64,000 nt of DNA from Cucumis sativus. Taxonomy: Eukaryota; Streptophyta; Magnoliopsida; Cucurbitales; Cucurbitaceae. Location: assembly GCF_000004075.3 (NCBI RefSeq), contig NC_026655.2, positions 4,402,001-4,466,000 of the forward strand, in the 5' to 3' direction. The notes beneath the pieces are model-generated. The model searched no databases and was not told the DNA's origin. It was given only the letters and a program-made list of their open reading frames with translations. Both the position numbers and the translations under genes were made by a program. Of the stretch, positions 3,839 to 62,960 are shown piece after piece. Position 1 is the first letter of the stretch. Every line of letters starts with the position of its first letter.

Positions 3839-6673
3839 TCAAACCATGTCATGGCGGTTAAGAAAATCAGCTACCAACGGATATACTTCACTTGATGCCT
3901 GCATCCCATGACATTGAATACAAAGAGGTTAGAGAAATTATAGATCAAGGTAGCTTAAAAAACTGGCTGTGAATGAGAAAAATCTGTACCAGACGGCTTC
4001 CCACAATATCATAGTGAGCATAGTGAGGTCCACCAGGCTTGCCAAGAACTTTGTAGGAAACTAACTGCCTAGGAATTTCTTTCACAGTTTCTGATCAATG
4101 TTAAAAAGGATTGGGAAGAGAGTCAATGTGGGTGATGAATAGAGTCAGAGAGAAGCCATGGTGAGGGCACTCAGGTATTGTAGTAGAAATCCTACCATAT
4201 ACCGCTTCAGGTGGACAAATAAGGTCTTGGTCTCCAGCAAGAGCAAGGATTGGAACATTGCCTTGGCGTAGATGATCCTTGTACTGGAATGTACCGTTCC
4301 TGTCACGTAAGCCCCCCTTTTCAAACACGGAAGATAGCTGCAAGAGAACCTTTGCAGGCACAGATCCTGAAAATTATATTATCAATCATGTCAACAAGTG
4401 TAGAGTTCCATAATGCTGAAATGAAACTGTCATTAGTAAGTTTTTCATTGACAAACAAAAGGAGAAGTATTTAACCAAAGCCATTCAACACAAGCTTCTC
4501 AAGCAAGGTGGGATGTAACATGTCTTCCACAGATACTTGGTCCTTTAACCAAGCCAAAACATAAGGAGGACGTGATGCAAGAGGATGAGCAATAACAAGC
4601 AATGGCCCGATGGGAAACACTGGAACATTAAAATTTTGTGCAGGATCTTTCTGTACATTTAAGATGGATTTGCCATTAGTTTCTCAATCTAGTACATGTG
4701 GTTAGCCAAATTGCGGAAGAAATCATCTGAAAATGCTTGTACAATCACTTGCCAAAGGTAAAAGAAGTCTGAGTGATGAATTTGATGGTCTGTAGTCAAG
4801 TGAAGAAGCCAAAGTAACAACTGATGCTAACTGCGGATCAACTTTCTTAAAGCCTGAAAAAGAATAGTAACAGTCAAGAAAGGTCCATTATAAAGAGCCC
4901 AACGTTCTGAATGATTGGTCTTTAAGATTATCGAAGTAGTTAGAACATTATGAAAGATAATAGGAAGGCATGTCAAACTCACTACAGCGAGAGATCATGG
5001 CATATAGCAAGATACCCCCCATCGAGTGGCCGATCGCTAGCAACTTGCCATCATTTGGTTTGGATTGATTCCTTATGTACTCCATCTAAAATGAAACATC
5101 ACATCCATGTTCATCATTAAAGTTTCTCATTTGACGGTGTGGTGGAAGAAGTACTATTTTCACCCATGCATGAAAAAACCCATGAAAAAGCACCTCACCG
5201 CAGCAGGCACGTCTTCTTCCAAGTAGTGGTCGAAGTCCCAATCGTACTTCTCATACACATCAAGTTGTTCCTGGAACTCTTCTAATGCAGAGGTAACACC
5301 TTGTACAAAAGGCTGGAATGGACCCAATTGTTGAGCTCCGTCAATTATATTGATAAGATTCTTATTCCATTGCCCAAGTTGAGTAGCAATGTTAGAAGTC
5401 TGTCCTGTAACAAATTTTAAAAAAATTAAAGAAATGAAAGCTAAAGTTCTTACATCTCCCAATACCTGAAGTTAATACTATAGATCTCGGAATGCAGTTA
5501 GGAAAATGAAAGAATTTTTAACACACCATCTCTAGAAGAGACATTGGAACCCTCAGAATTTTCATATACACTGGCCTTGACTAATGGCTGCTTTTCCAGT
5601 GTTTCAGATTCTATCTTCTCAGTTGTGCTAAGTCCCAATCCTCGAACTTCAAGAATCCATGTGTCATATCCTTGGTTGGACATGTAGCGAGCAAATGAGG
5701 ACTGAAAATATTACATTGTAAAAATAGTTGTAAGAACCGAGAATAATGGATGCTCTAGATGAAGTCCACGAAGATAACATAATAAGGTAGAAGAGAGCTC
5801 ATTTGGCACATTCTACAGAAAATAACAGAATGATCATTCTAAAACTGGAAAAAGAAAGATCAATCATAGTTCTTCAGTCGGTAATGGCCGGCAGCCAAAA
5901 GAAACGTAGAGAATTTCTCAAACGAACAGTTTGCAGATCAAGTTGGTAATATAGAAGTTTCAATTTCAATCCCCATCTTATTGCCGCAGAAAATGAAAAG
6001 ATCGAAAGAACAAAGTAATAATAGGAAAAGAAATGAGAAAAGTAGAAAGAAAATGCAACTCTATCACTCTCACTTACCTCTGGAGAAAGATCGTATCCAA
6101 GAGCATTGCTCCCAACCCCTGATAACAGCAAAAGCGGATGATTCCTCGATGGCGCCTGTTTGCAAAACAAAACACTCTCTTTTACACACACTTCTATCTG
6201 TTGACAAATTATCTCAATACCCACCAAGCTAAATTAGAAGCCCATGTTCTATTATGTTCCACAAGTGTCAAACATTCACAATTTATACATCAAACAGAAG
6301 CGATGGGGTTCAATAATAAAAAATCAAAGAGATTACAAAAGAAACTAAACCCAAATCAATTTATAAGATCAGAGTGAGAACGAACCCGAAGAGAAGGGGG
6401 GTAACGCCAGAGAGCGAGCTTCCAATCAGAGTTAGGAACCGAGACGTAATGAAGCTCATCGGCAGTACAGATCAAACCCGTCTTATTATCATTCAACCCA
6501 TACGCGCCACCGTAAAACGCCTTGACAGACTTCACGGCGACCACATTCCGTCGGCGTAAGACCCACGAGGGTTCTAAGTGCCCTTGTCCCCTGAATCGGT
6601 GGAGATGACGGCCGGGATTTTCGCTCCGGCCGATAGAAGAGAGATCGAAACGAAACAAATATAGCGTCGCCAT
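3839..6673 (-). CDS. Alpha/beta hydrolase family protein (UCP031088 type), 485 aa
   Basis: Ten exons, high to low: 6386-6673, 6078-6155, 5527-5701, 5199-5404, 4983-5085, 4753-4853, 4476-4650, 4196-4366, 3990-4090 and 3839-3898. They join in frame to 485 residues plus stop. The nucleophile elbow GHSMGG puts the catalytic Ser near residue 270. GDQDLICPPEAV supplies the acidic residue (~423), and GGPHYAHYD a His (~455 or 458), giving a complete triad. The N-terminal 90 residues contain many Arg and could include a targeting sequence. The reaction and substrate are unknown for this family. The last exon is only 20 codons; a frame that runs straight past the exon-9 donor gives an unrelated tail, so the spliced ending (ASSEVYPLVADFLNRHDMV) is preferred. 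The intron at 4651-4752 starts with GC. From memory the counterpart is At1g73750. Confidence 0.85.
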
Positions 6674-24027: not shown

Positions 24028-25629
24028 CTACCTCACTGTGACAATGTCATCAATCTTCAAAATCATTCGAACACACTCTGTAGCTAGAGTGATTGCACTT
24101 GTACTTACGAGAAGTGGCTGAACAACATTCTCCTCCAAGATGTTCGTGATCTGCCCCTTCCTTACATTAATTCCAGTATTGATCTCACCCTGAGCATGAC
24201 GATTCCTCAGTTCTGTTACAATGGTGATTGGGTTCAACCCAGCATTTTCAGCCAAAGTATATGGGATAACTTCAAGAGCCTCTGCAAAGGAACGAACACA
24301 GTAACCCTCCATGCCATGCAACACTTTTGCCCATGCACCCAGTTGCCTTGATAGCTCAATTTCTGGTGCACCACCACCTGCAATCAAGAACCTTTTATTT
24401 ACCAAACACCTAACAACGCACAGGGCATCATGCAAGCTTCGCTCAGCCTCATCAATCACTAGTTGGTTAGACCCCCGAACAAGTACGGTAGCAGTCCGCC
24501 CCATATCCTTAATGCCCGTGATCTTAACAATCTTCCCGTCTCCCATTGAAGCCTCCTCAACAAGCTCTGCATACCCCAACTTCTCAGCACGGAAATGTTC
24601 AATATTTGCAATTGGAAGACAATTGAGGGTCTTCGTAATGAATTCAATGTCATCGCGTTCAACATCCTTAATCACCAAAATCTTAGCTTTAGCAAGGTAA
24701 TGAAGTGACAAATCTGTCACTGCATCTCTCAAGATACTCTTCTGAATCAACAATACGTTACACCCAGTTGCTCTAATCTTCTTAATCATACCTAAAATGT
24801 AATTTCTCTCCTCTTTCAATATCCTATCCATCTGAGTATAATCCGAGACCACAATACTCTGTTCAATGTCAGTTTTAGGTGGTGAAATCTGGAATTGAAT
24901 AACTGCAATCTTAGCATTCTCCATTCTGGTCGGTCCACCAGCCGCATGACTTACCTTCTTGTCAAACACCAATCCCTTCACAAGCACAGTATCATCCACG
25001 GTCCCGCCCAGCTTCTTCACAATCTTAATATCTCTCAAATCAACCAAATCTGGCTTACCAGGATCAACAACCGAGAGCACAGAATCAACAGCAAGCGGAG
25101 CAAGCAGTGTCGAGTACTGACTAACAACTTTACTATTAAGCGAAGTACTCGCCGATTTAATCAACGACTCTCTATCCGAGAGCTCAACAGGGACAGCCAT
25201 TGCCGTCAACACATCAACAGCCTTAATGGCGGTCTTATGGAGGGAATCTGATATTACAGTGGGATGAATCCCATGAGACAAAAGAGAAAGACACTGTTTA
25301 AGAAGTGAACCTGCAATAACGACCACGGTAGTCGTACCATCTCCAGCAGCAGAGTCCTGCGACTTGGAGAGTTCGACAAGCATTTTAGCAGCAGGTTGGA
25401 GAACTTCCATTTTATTGAGAATGGTGGCTCCATCATTAGTAATAATAACCTCACCGGAAGCCGTGGAGATCATCTTGTCCATACCCTTAGGGCCAAGACT
25501 AGTACGAACAGCATCAGCGATGGCTCGAGCTGCTATGATATTAGCCTGTCGAACGTCCTCTTTGCGCTTGTTATCAACGTAGGACTCGGTTTTAGAGGAA
25601 CGGGGCTGAGATACAGCGGGAGCCGCCAT
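24028..25629 (-). CDS. CCT4: T-complex protein 1 subunit delta (CCT4), 533 aa
   Basis: A single uninterrupted reading frame of 533 residues, the usual length for CCT4. It is one of eight subunits of the cytosolic TRiC/CCT chaperonin, which folds actin, tubulin and other proteins in an ATP-driven cycle. The group II chaperonin motifs are present in order: LGPKGMDKM (~45-53), TNDGATIL (~64-71), GDGTTTVVV (~96-104, with the catalytic-loop Asp), and GGGAPEIE (near 420). The N-terminal tail is Ala/Pro/Ser-rich. The C-terminal end IDDIVTVR closes as in CCT4. No intron interrupts it, unlike every other multi-domain gene in this window, yet it has an intact frame and family-typical ends, so it does not look like a processed pseudogene. 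From memory the counterpart is At3g18190. Confidence 0.96.
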
Positions 25630-44343: not shown

Positions 44344-44654
44344 TTTAATGCTCCTTTCCTTTCAACTTCATCCCTTTTTTCCTCTCTACTCTTCCATCTT
44401 GCATCTCCCATTCTCTTTCCTCTTTTCCCCATCCCAAAAAGAAAAAAAAACCTTCTTCCCTTAAAAATGGTTCCTCTAGGGTTTTCACACCTTACCTGCC
44501 CTCTCCATCTTTTCCCATCTGGGGTTTCCCTCTTCTTTCATGGGTTCTTCTTAGTTTTTTCGAACTAGTTGTATTTTGTGTAAAAATCTCATCTTTTTCT
44601 ATGTTACTCCTTCTTTAAATACTACTTTTTTTTTGCTCAAATGAAATTAGGGTT

Positions 44655-44864
44655 TGAGGCAGAGCTCCTTGAAGTCCAATAGAGGTTTATGCCAGGTTGA
44701 TTGAGCTGCTAAGCTATGGATCCCACAGCCCCTATTGCTATATCTATCATGTTGTTGTATAATATCTTTAAAGCTGATAGGCCTGTGGCTTGCATATCTC
44801 AGGAGCTTCATCACCTGTTTTTGTTAGATCCTTGTTTGGATTGAAGGGAGCTCTACATCTTCTC
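44655..44864 (+). ncRNA. MIR159: MIR159 microRNA precursor
   Basis: The 3' arm at 44835-44855 reads TTTGGATTGAAGGG then AGCTCTA, which is the miR159 sequence over all 21 bases. The 5' arm (about 44662-44682, GAGCTCCTTGAAGTCC...) is the matching passenger strand. Between them are the conserved upper-stem blocks GCTGCTAAGCTATGGATCCC and GCATATCTCAGGAGCTTC of MIR159/319 precursors, so the long loop-to-base-processed fold is kept. miR159 directs cleavage of GAMYB-type MYB mRNAs and affects anther, seed and vegetative development. It sits alone, 6.4 kb upstream (by transcription direction) of eRF3 and about 2.7 kb before the NdhT stop. From memory, MIR159B in Arabidopsis (At1g18075) is next to the eRF3 gene, so this is probably its orthologue. 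Confidence 0.96.
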
Positions 44865-47586
44865 TCTAGTTTATCATAATTTTTTTAGCTTGTGGGTAAT
44901 GAATTAGAATCTACCTTTAAGGGTTTCTAGATCATAGTTTACTTAATTATTTGTTATTTTGTTACAAGGGTAATTAATAGCTTTTCCTTATTTATTCTTC
45001 TTCTTCCAATTCTCATCTCTTCTTCACTGACCTCTATAATTTATTTTCTCTGAACTTTCTCATGCCTTTATTTATTTCTTTTGACTTTTTTTATGATCAT
45101 TATTATTGTTACTCTTGTTTGGATCTTGCTTTGATTGGTGGGATCTGTAGTAGTTTCATGATTTTGTTTTTCTCATGAATCATGAGTGGAAGTGGGGATT
45201 TTGGTTGTGTTCTGAGTTGTTAGGGTACGAGATGTTGTTTGATGTCTTCACTCTTTGGACCATTTTTTTGTGCTACTTTTTGATTCAATATGAACTATAG
45301 TAATAATAATAATTTTTTTAATACCAAATAATGTTAACCCCTTCCTGTTTTTGTTTCTTTGATTATATCCAGGAAGTTTCTACTGTGTATATTAATGTTC
45401 TGACATTGTATCTTTGGAGATGAATGATTCTGACTATTAATAGTTATTCGTATTTTAGCTTTTTTTTTTTTCTTGTATCGTTAAAATATTATATTTAGTA
45501 CAACGATCGTGGATCTATTTATCTATACTGCTGGGCATTTTGAATGAAGAAAATATAGCCTTGTTGAGTTCATTGTGAATCAATTATTAGGTTAATTTGC
45601 ATTCTATACTATCCATTTTTTTGCTCTTAGATCTAACAAAATGTTAATAATTGATCATATTTATTGAACTTTTGCATGCAGAACCAATAATCAGAAATGT
45701 TCATAATAACACAATTTTTTAAACTTATTTGATGTTGAAATCAGTGGTTTTTTATCAACATTTTAAGATCTGTTAGTTTTATGGACGATAATTTGACCCA
45801 AGTTTAGACTTGTCTATTTATTTTATTTGAGAAAAATGGCAAAAGAGTTTAAACAATTTTTGTGAAATATGGTATTTATAATTTTCATTTTAACTCACTC
45901 ATTTTAAATCGTATCTGTGGTTACATATTGATCTAAATAATGTATTGTAGATGTACATTTGTTCATCTCAATTTAAACGAAGGTTAACATGGGTTTGACG
46001 AATACTTCTGAAGATTATACTAATAAGAAATATTAGTCTAGTTAATCAGCAAGTTTAGCCTGATGATTAAAATATGCTTGTTAATAGAAACGTCTTTGCT
46101 ACTTCTTATGTGCAGTTGTTTTTCTTTAACGTAAAATCAAAGTGCATTTGAGACAATGAATTGCTTATTATAGTTTGAGTTCAGAAGAAAGGTGAAATAG
46201 TAAAACTGTAGTAATAGTGAATACTATAGTGAGGTTTTTTACAAATTGTGTTGACACGAATTGAATATTACGTAATAGTATTTACGTTGTAAAAAGGTTT
46301 GATAAGTAAGCAAAAAATTCAGTCTGTTGTCTCAGTTCATCAACCTATATTAATGATATGTTGGTGGAAAGATATGAAATGGTGAAACCATTTCTGTGTA
46401 TTGGATTTGAGCTTGTATATAGTTTTCTCTTGATTATGAATTGTATAGTTGTGCAGTTTTTGTTCCATCCAGTGAAAGTAGGGAGAGGGAATATGAAGAG
46501 GTGATTGAAATTAAATCAAAATGTGACATGATGAATGCAACTGATCTTCAAGAACATCTTTCACTTGGTGTGTGTATATAACAGTGTGTGGATGTTCAGA
46601 TATTTTACTGCTTTGTACTTCTTTACTGTATACTCCAACCAATTTTGTTAGTTGAATTTATTGGTATGTTTACGTGGCTAACACTTGTACATTTCTTTTG
46701 TATCTAAAGAGACTTATCATTCAATAAGATTGATATCAATTTTGTGTCTCCATGTTCGTCCCAAGTCATATTGCATTTGAAGGTTAACTCAACACCTTTT
46801 AAACTTAATTGTTATTTTCAACCATTCTTATACGCTCACTTGTGTCAATATCTCTACCCCTTCTAAAGAATCATTGCTAAGAACACAAACATAATTTTGA
46901 TCTAAAAATTATGTTTTACTTACAAAAATTGCATTTTATACTGTGAAATTGACAAATATGAATTAACGATACTATGTTTTTAAATTTGTAATTTTTGTAA
47001 ATTCTCTTTTTACTTAATTTTTGAAAAGGTGAGATTTAAATTAAATTTTAAAGAAATGATCTTGAATATTCTTTCAATAAAGGATAAAAACAAAATAAAA
47101 TTAGTTGGAAGAGTTGTAAGTATAACAATTAAATTCTAAATAATTAAGTATGTAATAACATTTTAAAAAGTTTAGAAATATAGCAAAATGTGTTGATAGA
47201 AGTCTATCAGTTGCAGGTTTATAATGGTCTGACATAAGAGTCTATTTATAATTTTGTTATCGTAAATTTTATTATATTTGTAATTTTTTAAAAATATTAG
47301 TAGATAATTAATTATTATTTTTAAAATTACCATAAATTATTTAACACAATTTATTTCAGCACATGTACGACCAATCTCAAACGATGATCACGCAACACTT
47401 GATGGAACAATGGTAAATATACCATTGATTTTGATTTCGAACGGAAAGGAATTGAATGGTATAGAAATATTTTCAAATATAGTAAAATAAACGAAAACAT
47501 TTATAAAATGAAAGCAAAATCTTATACGACGGATGTAGAATATAAAATTTTGTTATATTTTTAGGAATTTGTATGTATGTAATATA
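44865..47586. other. Gene-free spacer after MIR159
   Basis: The 5' part is probably the 3' end of the primary miR159 transcript. The rest is AT-rich with no open frame of interest. A GATAG-type repeat occurs at about 47165-47300 (ATAGCAAAATGTGTTGATAG, AGTCTATCAG). Confidence 0.5.
47165..47300. repeat. AT-rich 'ATAGCAAAAT..GATAG' dispersed repeat
   Basis: ATAGCAAAATGTGTTGATAG, AGTCTATCAG and a TATTTGTAATTTTTTAAAAA ending follow the plan of a repeat with TAGCAAAA at one side and a T-rich tail at the other. Relatives are suspected at 7310-7430, 54270-54430 and 63350-63570. Confidence 0.45.
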
Positions 47587-54965: not shown

Positions 54966-57900
54966 ATGGGGATAAAAGACCTCCTCAGGTTTATGAAGCC
55001 CTACATTGAGCCCATTCACATCAAGAAATACGCGGGCGAACGTGTAATGTATCCCGTGTTTCTATTTGGTTGTTTAGTTTACTTGATTCATTGATTCTTG
55101 AACCGAGCTTTTTTTGCAGGTGGGTATCGACGCGTATAGCTGGCTCCACAGAGGAGGTAACGTTTCTGCTTCTTCATTATTGCAATGTGTTCTTTTTGTG
55201 ATGTTTGGGAGGGGGGGTTGTTATCCATTTTATTAACACTGCTTTTGTAACAGCTTATTCTTGTAGTATGGAGATTTGTCTTAACTCTAATAGTGATAAG
55301 AAATGGCGATATATAGACTACTGTATGCATAGAATCAATCTGCTTCGTCACTATGAGATAGTCCCAGTTGTTGTTTTCGACGGCGGGAATATTCCGTGTA
55401 AGGCAGTCACTCACCAAGAAAGGCACAGGTATGTTCTCACTGTTTATAGTATTATTCTCTTTTGAAATTTTGTAGTTTAGCTTGTTGTAAAAATGGGTGT
55501 ATATGGCCTTCCCAGAAAAAAAGAGAAAAACAGGGAATTAGCGATGGAGAAGCTGAAAGAAGGGAATGTTAATGCTGCCTCTGAGCTTTTCCAGGTTTTT
55601 GACATTCTATAGATGCTATACTTTTACGGTTATACTATTTACATTCAGCTTTCAAAACTGGGAGTATCTTTCAGATGTGGGAGCTAAAAGTTTTACATTT
55701 GAAGTATAATTTATTCACTAATAAGCTCGGCTCAAACTCACTCACTGCATCAATGACAAAGTATATTGCTGTTAAGGAGTTGAATATGTTGTTACTAGTG
55801 TATTTGGGTTCTCATTAAAAAAAATATGAAGCCACCTGACTATCAAAGTTTAAATTGGCTAGTAGTTAACAAGAGCCTAGTTAACAAGGAGTTATAGAGA
55901 ATGAGTTAAATCCATGGTGATGTTGGCTACCTATCTAAGATTTAATATTCTATAACTTGCCTTGACATTCTAGTGGGTAGGATTCAACAAGTTGTCTTGT
56001 GAAATTAGTGGAGGTATGAGTAATGTAATGTGAAAAAAAAAAAAAAGTTTAAGCAATCTCCATTGCCTCTCACTTTGCAAAATACTCCCTTTTATTCGTT
56101 CACAAGCAATCTAATGTGAATTTTAGATGCTTTTTATTATAGTTTGTATTCATGTCTAATTTCACGTTGTCTTTTTTTTTTTTGGTAGCGAGCAGTGAAC
56201 ATTACTCCATCCATAGCAAATCAACTAATAAAGGCAAGTGCTTTTCACATAATACAAATACAAATACATTGTATTCACATTTACCATTTTTTAAAACAGA
56301 GTTTCTTGATAAATATCTGAACTTCGGTATGCTAGTTGTGATCACACTGCATCAACAGAGTGTTTCTACTTTTCTCCTACATTAACTGTTTCAGTTGTTC
56401 ATCATTCTAGCTTCTTAGAGAACACGACATCGAATTTGTGGTAGCCCCTTATGAGGCTGATGCACAGTTGGCATATCTTTCCAGCCTTGGAACACTAAAC
56501 GGAGGAATTGCGGCTGTGATCACAGAGGATAGTGACATGATTGCATATGGTTGTAAAGCTGTAAGAACTTGCACAATGCTTTGATTTGATGCAAATGGAG
56601 GTCCAGTGCTCTCATGCTGCCTTTGTTTGAACTATTTGTTGCACGAAAGTGTCAAGCCTTTCTTTGTGTTGATTGGGATTGCTTTGCAGACAATCTTTAA
56701 GATGGACCGATATGGCAATGGTGAAGAGATGATGCTAGATAAGATTTTTGACTCTGCAGGCTGTACACCTTCCTTCAAAGATTTTGACAAGGAATTGCTC
56801 ACAGGTGAACTCCTAGTCCCCCGTCCCCCATATTTTCCTTGCAATTGAACGTGAACAATTTTTATTGCAATCAACATTACTTGCACCGAAGCAAACTGAC
56901 TTCTGTTTCTGTTTTCTACAGGCATGTGTGTCTTAGCTGGCTGTGACTTTCTTCCTTCAGTTCCTGGAATCGGCATCGCAAGGGCTTACGCATTGGTCTC
57001 CAAGTATCGGAATCTGGAACGTGTAAGCACATCTGTTTTCTCTTGCATCCAAAATTTTTAATGATTGATCATAACCCTAAACCCTAAACTTTAAACCTAT
57101 AGAGGCGTTCAAGAAATTTTCTACACTCTTTTATCCAAAAAGAAATAATAACAATCTACATCCCCTTGGAAAAAAGAAAAAAGGGACATTTGAGATGTTT
57201 GTGCCTAAAACCATCCAACGTGTGCCAAGTCATATCTTCCTTTTCTACGGACAAGGAAATATTCTTTTATGTGACAGCAAGTGCATGGTTACCATTGAGC
57301 AGTAAGATTCATCTCACGGTTTTCTTTACATTCTCAGCAATAGATTCGGGCCTTCAGCTGCAGTAAATTTCTCCTATTCTAGAGCTCAAGCTTTTAAAAT
57401 TTGATAACTGGATACTCTCTTACACTTCAGCTACCTTTCTCTTGGATAGTTCAATTGACATATCGTTATATAATTCATTCATTCATTTTATCGCCACTGC
57501 AAAACTTAAATATCACTTGTGTGGCTATTTACTTTTAAGCCATCTCAGGTTTTGACTTCATAAACAACGTTTGAGAGCAATCATCTAAAGCTGGTTTTAA
57601 TTGGCATCTCTTTCAGGCTCTCTCTGCTTTGAAGCTTCAGAAAAAGGAACAAATGCCTGAAGATTACTTCAAACTTTTCAGACAAGCTATGGCAGTCTTT
57701 CAGCATGCAAAAATGTGTGTGTGTACAATGAAAATGTGATTTAGCATTAACCACTAATTCCATAATGTATTCATCCAATGACTTGTTTTAGTTCCATGCA
57801 GTTATGATGCTGAAACGAGGAAGCTTATACCCATGAAACCGCTTCCCCTAGAGCTTCTGCAGGTCCTAGGTGAAGAAATTGATTTTTTGGGACCGTATCC

Positions 57901-59700
57901 TTTATCCAATAACCATTTTTACCTGCTTGAGTTCGTATTTTCTTGGGAACTGTCATCTTTATTCCCACACGAGTACATATCAATATAAGCATTAGAAGTA
58001 GAGTGAGAGACTCCTGAAGTTAAAGGGCCAACCTTCGTCTAACGATTCTGTATTAATTTATCTGATATTATCATGTCTGGCTTTGTGCCTTGTTTGATCA
58101 ATGCCCCTGCACATCGATACAATTCTTCATTAAAGCTACTTTGGTTATTGGTACTGTGATTAATATCAAGGAACCTGGGACGGAGGATGAGTTAATGACC
58201 AATTCTTGGTGGATTTTGTTGGAGGGCGTAAAATATATGCTTTTTTTAGTAACTAGTCAGGAACCATTTTTTTTTGTTATTATTTTTCTTTAACCAATTA
58301 TGATGGAAATAGAGATATGCCTCCTTCAATAGCTGTTTCAATAGCCGAAGGAAGGTTAAACCCCGTAACTATGGAGGCCTTTAACTATTTCTCGAGTGAA
58401 GAATGTAACCAAGACCTTATAATAAAGAATAAAGAAATACTTCCAAGGACGGAGAAAGCTGAGGTATCTGAGGAGGAGAGCTGTTTTATGGTCGTTGGTA
58501 AGGACAGAGAAAGACATATCCCAGGTTAGTTTTCTGGTACAACTTGAAGATACTTATTCCTGGTTCAAGCTTAAGTTTCCTTTCAATTTCAATAATATGA
58601 TATTTCTTTTATAATTTTTATATTTTTTAATTCTTGATTCCCGATAAAAGCAAAGAAAATAGAAACTAGCACAGACATGAGTCGGCCAAAGAACTTTAAA
58701 ACAGCAAAGTTCGCATTTCTGTGGTTAGTAGGAAACATTGTTACTTGCAAACTTGACTTGGTAGATGCATCTAGTTATCTATAAACGCCCTTAAGGTTAC
58801 TAGAATACATTAGAAATACCTTGATGGATTCCCACCGTAACTCAATTGAAGAAGTCTATATTTAGAACGTTTGAGTGAAGGTTGTGGTATATGTGGTCTT
58901 TTTAATATAATTTTAAACTGGTTTTGAAAATTAACTCAAATTCCAATAAGTTGAATGACACGAAGCTCCTTCAAAAACTAATGTTTTGATAGTATGTTAA
59001 GTTATTCTTTGAATGTAATTTTCAAAATATATTCTTAACCAAAACAAATACAAATACTTTATTATAGTTAATTTTATGATATATCGAATTGTGGAATGAA
59101 CTATATTGAGAATGTTCAATAACTAATCATCTTCATCATTTTATGACAGATAAGAAAATTAAACCTGTAGCAGGCTATAAGAAGTCTAAAGAAGACTTTG
59201 CACTTGAGAAGCTAATTACACCGTCGAGTGTTCCAAGAACAAATGAAGTCAAGCCTGTTCTTAACTACAAATCAATAAAGACTCCGGATAACAATCCATT
59301 CAAGAGAAGGAAAGTTGATGAATTGCCCTTGGAACCAACGCAAAGGGTTGATGAAGAAGTTTCAGTCGTAAGTGAGGATGAATGTGCCTTATTATCGAGC
59401 GCCACTTCAGATAACTTAATATCAAAATCTTCTAATAAAAGAAAACTAAACGAAGCTCTTACTGACCAAAAGGACAATGCTATTGAGCATATATCAGGGG
59501 TGACCCAAGAAGAGGATTTGGTGCTGTTAGAACTGCCACCAGAATCCCAAAAAAGCGTAAACTCAAAGGCAAGCAGTGCTATAGGTAGAAAAAGAGTTGT
59601 AGGCAAGGAGAACAAGGGAAAGAGTAATAGTTCAGGGATTCCAAAGAATAGTATATTGAACTTCTTCTCTAGAGTATTATCATGTAAATTTCTGTCTTGA
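54966..59700 (+). CDS. EXO1: Exonuclease 1 (XPG/FEN1-family 5'-3' nuclease), 577 aa
   Basis: Twelve exons: 54966-55043, 55120-55156, 55254-55428, 55516-55594, 56189-56233, 56411-56560, 56690-56804, 56922-57022, 57617-57714, 57802-57894, 58313-58524 and 59150-59700; sum 578 codons. EXO1 resects DNA ends and removes mismatched strands in repair and recombination. Key motifs: [10 protein letters not shown] start, [11 protein letters not shown] (Asp ~30), [44 protein letters not shown] (H3TH region). The metal-binding acidic residues of the XPG-N and XPG-I domains are all present. The C-terminal third is Lys/Ser/Glu-rich and disordered. The intron at 56234-56410 is GC..AG and that at 57895-58312 looks U12-type. 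The final nine residues after NFFSRV may be replaced by a further exon; this is not resolved. Plant EXO1 exists in long and short forms; this resembles the shorter one (At1g18090, from memory). Confidence 0.9.
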
Positions 59701-60116: not shown

Positions 60117-62960
60117 TCATTTCTTCTTTCTTTCAAGTAGTTGCTTGAACCAATATGCAGACATCTTTGGATACCTCTTAAGATTACTATAATCTACATA
60201 GACAATGCCAAATCTTGACGTGTACCCCAACCTCCATTCGAAGTTGTCAAGCAAGGACCAAGCAAAATATCCAATAACGTTAGCTCCATCGTCAACTGCC
60301 TTCTTGAGTTGTGTCAGATAGCCTTTGTAGAAGTTGATTCTAGTAGTATCATGTAGTCCCTTTGGAAGAGTGACATTACCTGGGTCATCCATGCCTGCAA
60401 ATCCAATTTCCTTTTAAAGTTAACACAAATATTGAACTACTATTTCTTTGATCTCAATAGATTGTTGATTACCATTTTCTGATAGAATGACAGTTGGGTT
60501 CCCATAGTACTTTTTCACATACATTAATGCTTTGTACATTCCCCATGGGACATTGTATAGCCAATAAGAATGAGCCTGTAAATGATTGAAATCATAACTT
60601 TCAGGATAAAGCAGACAACTCTTATTTGCTAATATAACTAAGAACACGAAGAAGTGAAAGTACCCTTGGGCCAATAGGAACTCCATTCTTCTCATCTGCA
60701 TAGTTATTGTCAAGCTTGGGTCAGTAGAAGGCTTAAAAGGACAAACAAAAGTTGAAACATTTTCATTTCAATTTCTTAAAAGGACATGTGAAAGATAGCT
60801 AGCTCACAGGCAAATCCTGCATTCCAGTCTTGTTGGTAGCCAGGCACTTTAGCTTTTCGTTGATGCGGATCATACATGTAGTAAGTCGTGTATTGGTTTA
60901 TCCCGACTAAGTCTATCGAGCCTTTCACCATTTTGACTTCCTCCTTTGTGAACTTAGGCAGCCTGTTACCCACGATATTTTGAACTGTTCTAGGATACTC
61001 ACCATATACAATAGGATGAAGAAACCTAAGCGAATCCGAAACATTCACGCGAACGAACATTTTAGTATGAAAGAAATGGATATGAAAATGGATAAGCATC
61101 AAGGGTGTTGAACTTTTACCATCCAATGTGGAAATCTCTTGCCCTTTGAGCAGCATAGTTGTCAGCCTTTGAACGAGTAAGAGGTTCGTACCAAACGAAA
61201 TCCAAAAGAATACCAATTCTTCCCTTTTGTTTTTCCTAAACCAGCAAAATCCCAATGAGAAATCCTAAAGAGACTTTTTCATGTCTTATGTATGTGTAAA
61301 ATTGTCTAAACTAACTTGATACTTCTGACGATATCGTTGAACAGCAGCTGCATGAGAAAGAATCAAATGATGGGCAGCAATATAAGGTTCGGTCCCCGAA
61401 TTTCCAGCCGTGCAATTTCCGTATGCTTTAGAACACCTCCCAGGAGCAAAAAAACCATTATCATATCCTAGAGCTGCCACGACTCTTGGTTCGTTAAACG
61501 TCATCCAATTCTTAACTCTATCCCCAAACGTTTTGAAACAAAATTCTGCATAATCTGCAAAATCCTTCCTACAAAAAACCAAAACCACATTTAACATTCA
61601 AACTCCAATTCAAACCATCTATACCGTTACCAATAACCAAACTACTACAGGAAAAGTAAAATTCTTACACTACTCTGTCACTCAATAGGCCTTTATACTC
61701 TTCTTCCAAGGCTTGAGGAAGATCATAGTGATACAAATTAGCATAAGGAGTTATGCCTACAAAACAATGAATCAAATCAAGTGTTATTACAGTGTTTGGT
61801 CAATCAAAAGGTGAAAACTTAATAATGTTTGGTAAACCTTCTGCTTGTTCTCACCTCTTTTGAGTAAATAGTTAATCAACTTATTGTAGTATGCAACTCC
61901 CTTCCAATTCACTTTCCCTCTTCCATCTAACATTAACAACACACTTGAAAATTAATGAAAAAGTAAAAAGTAAAAAGTAAAAACTTCACACCTTAACATT
62001 ATAATAATGGCAGTGCTTCAATCAATTACTTGGGAAGATTCTGGACCATGAAATTGAGAAGCGGTATGCATCAAAATTTAGCTTGGCCATGATGTCAATG
62101 TCTTGCTGTTACATTAAAAAGCCATTAAAGATCTCATCGATAATATATTTAGGTCCAATTTTGTATGAAGAAATCCCAAACTCATAATTTTTTTTGTCAA
62201 TTTATAAACTTCAAGTTTAGCCACCGAAATTTTGAAATCTAAAAAAAAAAAAAAACAAAAAGTATAGTTTTTAAAAACTTGCCTTTTGCCTTTGAAATTT
62301 GGTTAAGAAATAAAGCATTATGATGAGTAAACCACCGACATAAATCATAAATAGTTAACTTCTTTGGACAAATTGCCAAAACTATAGTTGCAATAACACG
62401 CTCAAATGGTTCAAATTTGATTCTTCAAACTTATCCGTTATAGAAATTGAACTTCCAAATGATAAAAGTTGAATGGTTGAAAGTACAAAGGCCTATAATG
62501 GCAACTAACACTGGTGGTTCTTTCCAATTTGTGCTTATTAAATGGTTTTAAAAAGTATAGAAACTCATGAAAGACTGAATACCGGATATTTATGATACTG
62601 ATCCACCGAGATCTCTCCAGTACCATTGTTCGCTACAATTCCTGTTCCCAAAACAAAACCACATTCCCAAATTAGTTAAACAGCTAAAAACTAAAACAGA
62701 ATCAGTTCAAAGTAAGAAAAATCAAATCCATGGATAATTGTACCAGGCTTTTTGATGAAGACATCCCAAATGCTGGGGCCACGCCCTTCCTTATCCGCCA
62801 TTCCCTCCACCTGATACGCCGACGTCGCCGTTCCAAAGATGAATCCCTTGGGAAAGCTGTCTCGGCTAAGTCCGCCGGTGTCGAAATGGACGGTCTCAAG
62901 GTGCATTGCGGTGGCCGCACACAGCATGCAGACCACCGGTAGTAACAAAGCAACTCGCAT
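60117..62960 (-). CDS. BGLU44: Glycoside hydrolase family 1 beta-glucosidase, secreted, 503 aa
   Basis: Eleven exons: 62744-62960, 62583-62641, 62030-62105, 61855-61926, 61669-61756, 61316-61568, 61120-61235, 60808-61025, 60664-60695, 60473-60575 and 60117-60394; sum 504 codons. GH1 enzymes cut beta-glycosides with retention. The acid/base Glu is in [10 protein letters not shown] (~197) and the nucleophile Glu in VILSENGMDDP (~410), both intact. [15 protein letters not shown] and [13 protein letters not shown] are standard. The start [19 protein letters not shown] is a clean signal peptide. An in-frame ATG 22 codons upstream (63026) exists, but would put a polar stretch before the signal. Sequence is closest, as recalled, to BGLU44/43 (At3g18080/At3g18070), reported to prefer mannosides and cell-wall oligosaccharides. 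It is convergent with EXO1. Confidence 0.92.

Follow-up and report, generated by a model that had tools for sequence, protein, structure and literature searches.

EXO1 has already been reported as a gene with a U12-type intron in mammals. In Zrsr1/2 mutants, mouse Exo1 is named as one of the genes whose U12 introns are affected (PMC7312986), and a U11-null preprint counts it among the minor-intron genes (PMC13192996); work on human RNPC3 variants put EXO1 on a shortlist of genes with U12 introns (PMC7612377). DNA repair is one of the functions in which U12 introns are reported to be enriched (PMC3584512, PMC10639083), the strength of this functional enrichment being questioned in one of the two reports (PMC10639083). 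In Arabidopsis, 269 U12-type introns are recorded in IAOD and 292 unique ones in ERISdb (PMC7367187). The published consensus for the U12 donor is RTATCCTTT (PMC2846911) and the optimum distance from branch to AG is 11-13 nt (PMC3584512). U12 introns are biased against phase 0 and, when they are GT-AG introns of phase 1 or 2, against A or G at position -1 (PMC7367187).

The intron described here, intron 10 of a plant EXO1 gene, lies in a window of 64 kb, which is the whole stretch of DNA that was analysed. Judged from its sequence, this intron, which has GT-AG ends, very probably belongs to the U12 (minor) class. No report of a U12 intron in plant EXO1 was found among the matches listed from the open-licence literature (titles and the starts of abstracts), and an entry for it may well exist in IAOD, U12DB or ERISdb. 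The original prediction implied that a U12 intron in EXO1 would be new; this novelty is weaker than suggested, as mammalian EXO1 is already described as a U12-intron gene.

The coding region was modelled with 12 exons, spliced by hand (Table 1), and the best match of the spliced product was EXO1, over FEN1, XPG or GEN1. Residues 1-350 matched human EXO1 structures with an E value of 2.5e-68 and FEN1 with 5.9e-17; identity to the human nuclease fragment was 39%. Pfam detected XPG_N (1.2e-19) and XPG_I (3.2e-15) in the same 350 residues. The match to human EXO1 and the two domains confirm the earlier assignment of the gene. In the protein alignment with human EXO1 there is no gap at the intron 10 junction (..FLG-P|D-MPPSIA..), where Pro324 of the plant protein faces human residue 315, as counted in the alignment. 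The junction 57894/58313 therefore rests on protein homology and not on splice motifs. Further downstream, the tail encoded by the last exon (59150-59700, + strand) gave no Pfam match. Close to the end of this tail is SILNFFSRV, which may loosely resemble a PCNA-binding motif.

Table 1. Features of the plant EXO1 gene and of its intron 10 (positions in the window)
Feature	Position	Strand	Details
EXO1 coding region, ATG to TGA	54966..59700	+	12 exons, 11 introns, 577 aa, XPG_N and XPG_I domains
EXO1 exon 10	57802..57894	+	ending ..EEIDFLG-P(CC)
EXO1 intron 10, GT-AG, 418 nt, phase 2, predicted U12-type	57895..58312	+	junction defined by homology; donor score U12 minus U2 +14.5
5' splice site GTATCCTTT	57895..57903	+	exact U12 consensus; ..ACC on the exon side, a poor fit to U1
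In-frame read-through if intron 10 is retained	57895..57988	+	Pro324 followed by 30 additional codons and the stop TAA 57986-57988
U12-like branch site TTCTTTAAC	58286..58294	+	consensus TTCCTTAAC with one C-to-T; branch A 58293
Branch-to-AG segment, without polypyrimidine tract, TAG end	58295..58312	+	pyrimidine fraction: see text
EXO1 exon 11	58313..58524	+	starting (A)-D-M-P-P-S-I-A

The exact U12 donor that had been claimed for the intron is present and matches RTATCCTTT at 9/9 positions. The branch-like motif claimed with it was also found where expected. It matches the U12 branch consensus TTCCTTRAY at 8/9 positions, with T instead of C at position 4, and its branch A is 19 nt from the last base of the intron. 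This distance is within the published search ranges of -55..-5 and -40..-5 and above the 11-13 nt optimum. Over the 18 nt that precede the terminal AG (58293-58310) the pyrimidine fraction is 0.39, the lowest in the gene, the other ten EXO1 introns having values of 0.56-0.83. The phase of intron 10 and the C at -1 both fit the reported U12 biases.

The position scoring that had been proposed as a check was run using U12 and U2 matrices that are approximations built from consensus; the remaining ten EXO1 introns served as controls. On these approximate matrices intron 10 was the only one of the 11 with a U12 donor score above its U2 score: it favoured U12 over U2 by +14.5 bits, compared with differences of -4.5 to -25.8 for the others. 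Its branch score of 9.4, on the same approximate basis, was the highest of the 11, the runners-up having 7.4 and 6.6. Of the features that had been named as speaking against the U12 class, neither a low U12 score (+14.5) nor a good polypyrimidine tract before the AG (pyrimidine fraction 0.39) was found.

Base pairing with the snRNAs was predicted using what we take to be the relevant ends of U1, U11 and U12. Only in intron 10, among the 11 EXO1 introns, did pairing with U11 (-5.2) beat pairing with U1 (-1.5). U11 pairing energies as strong or stronger were obtained for introns 5 (-6.1), 2 (-5.3) and 7 (-5.2, equal to intron 10), and these three introns also show strong U1 pairing. Pairing of U12 with the branch was best in intron 10, narrowly (-6.0 vs -5.5). 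The U12-type reading is thus supported by the donor, the branch and the missing pyrimidine tract, set against ten controls from the same gene.

The motifs alone prove little, as their counts in the window are near expectation and their combination also arises in shuffled DNA. RTATCCTTT was seen once (2.17 expected), RTATCCTT three times (5.78 expected) and TTCYTTRAC six times (5.16 expected); the donor motif was accordingly rejected as significant by itself, about two being expected per 64 kb. An exact donor followed within 3 kb by a TTCYTTRAY branch and an AG gave two pairs in the window, both using the intron 10 donor; the second branch is at 60444, past the end of the EXO1 gene. Such a combination was present somewhere in 7/60 shuffled windows. 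Ranked by score, the intron 10 donor is the top U12 site among 6438 GT sites on both strands of the window (1/6438 reaches its score). A branch as good as that of intron 10 lies 8-40 nt upstream of 47/7435 AG sites, and within the 10-20 nt range of about 0.16%. The evidence is one of position: the U12 motifs coincide with a junction that homology has fixed, and an exact donor together with the branch on such a junction is very unlikely by chance.

This bears directly on the possibility that intron 10 is a U2-type intron whose donor resembles the U12 consensus by chance, with the major spliceosome using these same sites to remove it. Such a reading would be consistent with the GT-AG ends and with the expectation of 2.17 donor motifs per window; TTAAC also fits a loose U2 branch, and a T-rich stretch (58267-58291) is found directly upstream of the branch. 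The donor, however, is a poor one for U2. It misses the U2 consensus at -2, -1, +5 and +6, its U2 score of -2.4 is the lowest of the 11 (intron 1 is next at -2.1), and its predicted U1 pairing of -1.5 kcal/mol is the weakest among them. There is also no pyrimidine tract between the branch and the AG, and the coincidence of exact donor and branch with the homology-fixed junction would be left to chance. A U2-type intron is, therefore, quite improbable.

The junction itself could also be different. The earlier statement that only this junction keeps the frame was too strong, as nine GT-AG pairs (donors 57830-57959, acceptors 58240-58344) are in frame and stop-free. Among the nine, 57895/58312 gives the highest alignment score against human EXO1 (50, compared with 20-40 for the remaining eight pairs), so that the predicted junction ..IDFLG-P-DMPPSIA.. 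is borne out by homology, and it is the only pair with a U12-like donor (12.1 vs <= -6.9). Splicing from a U2 donor, TAG|GTGAAG, at 57870 to the AG ending at 58314, whether as the main or an alternative form, would keep the frame without stops and give a product nine residues shorter, and this donor has the better U2 score (0.4 vs -2.4 for 57895). Nevertheless, it is a weak donor, and its use would remove residues that align with human EXO1 (score 36 vs 50). We regard this junction as highly improbable, although it may be used in a minor alternative form, and the U12-type intron at 57895-58312 is the preferred reading.

The statement that no other modelled intron has this donor was followed up by a donor scan of the window, and holds to that extent; two further exact RTATCCTT sites, both ATATCCTT, occur at 5666 and 24503, the latter opposite a long minus-strand ORF (24028-25629). 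A loose scan of the window returned 21 donor-branch-AG combinations, intron 10 included. A perfect TTCCTTAAC is present at 11082-11074 (- strand), on our reading upstream of the ATG of a gene on that strand whose product has a glycosyltransferase-28 domain. The scan gave no exact U12 donor for this site, the single paired donor being one mismatch off, and as a U12 branch it is probably due to chance. The window also contains a MIR159 microRNA precursor (44650-44867, + strand; Rfam match of 105.4 bits), one of the features that point to a plant as the source of the DNA.

Some other introns of the gene are unusual in their own right. Intron 5 (56234-56410, + strand) is best read as GC-AG, AAG|GCAAGT ... 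CTAG|CTT, a class that makes up about 1.2% of plant splice sites (PMC6310983). EXO1 would thus combine GT-AG U2, GC-AG and U12-type introns. Intron 9 (57715-57801, + strand) has a weak donor inside a GT repeat that offers five GT positions (AAT|GTGTGTGTGT); use of either 57715 or 57721 keeps the frame, so a form of EXO1 with two extra residues is possible. A telomere-like short repeat, aaccctaaaccctaaac, is found within intron 8 at 57073-57089 (+ strand).

By analogy with the known minor-spliceosome pathway, GTATCCTTT would be recognised by U11 snRNA and U11-48K, and U12 snRNA would pair with TTCTTTAAC, leaving the adenosine bulged. With the C-to-T change in the branch a G-U pair with U12 snRNA would remain. 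U6atac would take the place of U11, and the first AG downstream of the branch would be used. Removal of the intron would join CC|A and so restore Pro324, which lies in the final portion of the region homologous to the nuclease domain.

Retention of intron 10 would lead to the loss of residues 325-577. As the retained intron stops after 30 codons, full-length EXO1 would be expected to depend on minor-spliceosome activity, and because intron 11 lies downstream, nonsense-mediated decay might act on a transcript that retains intron 10. Production of full-length EXO1 in this plant would, then, probably rely on the minor spliceosome, whose impairment could lower the capacity for mismatch repair and end resection. 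A U12 intron in EXO1 fits the reported enrichment in DNA repair and would be nothing unusual in a gene of this function.

The pattern scans carried out on contigs of other kinds gave no relative of EXO1: there was no pattern match in one scan of viral contigs, and none of the 29 pattern matches in one scan of prokaryotic contigs was such a relative.

Among the closest described cases is mammalian EXO1, which has both the gene and the intron class in common with plant intron 10. In mouse, a variant in intron 8 of the gene is reported to yield truncated forms (PMC6930371). It is conceivable, though somewhat doubtful, that the minor introns of plant and mammalian EXO1 occupy one shared codon (codon 315 of the human protein, phase 2, from the alignment). 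They would then derive from a single intron that has stayed U12-type from the common ancestor of plants and animals onwards, and in both kingdoms EXO1 production would depend on the minor spliceosome. A comparison of the positions in plant and mammalian EXO1 would separate one ancient conserved minor intron from two separate ones. In recent surveys the share of U12 intron positions common to human and Arabidopsis is low, with 8/93 alignable human U12 introns conserved in position in Arabidopsis (PMC7367187) and a figure of 5.5% (PMC10639083); an older study gives a higher value (PMC2426677).

Compared with plant U12 GT-AG introns in general, EXO1 intron 10 is alike in its RTATCCTTT donor, its near-TTCCTTRAY branch, the lack of a pyrimidine tract, its non-0 phase and its setting in a DNA-repair gene. 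It differs in the C-to-T change at branch position 4 and in a rather long branch-to-AG distance of 19 nt. For the first of these differences there is a precedent in the U12-type intron of Monodelphis RNF121 (PMC7367187). That intron belongs to an unrelated gene and ends AAG, not TAG. It is also a phase 2 intron, given as CCC|GTATCCTTTT and TTTTCTTTAACC in Table 1 of the source (PMC7367187), and it shares with EXO1 intron 10 the donor CC|GTATCCTTT and the branch core TTCTTTAAC, including the T at position 4.
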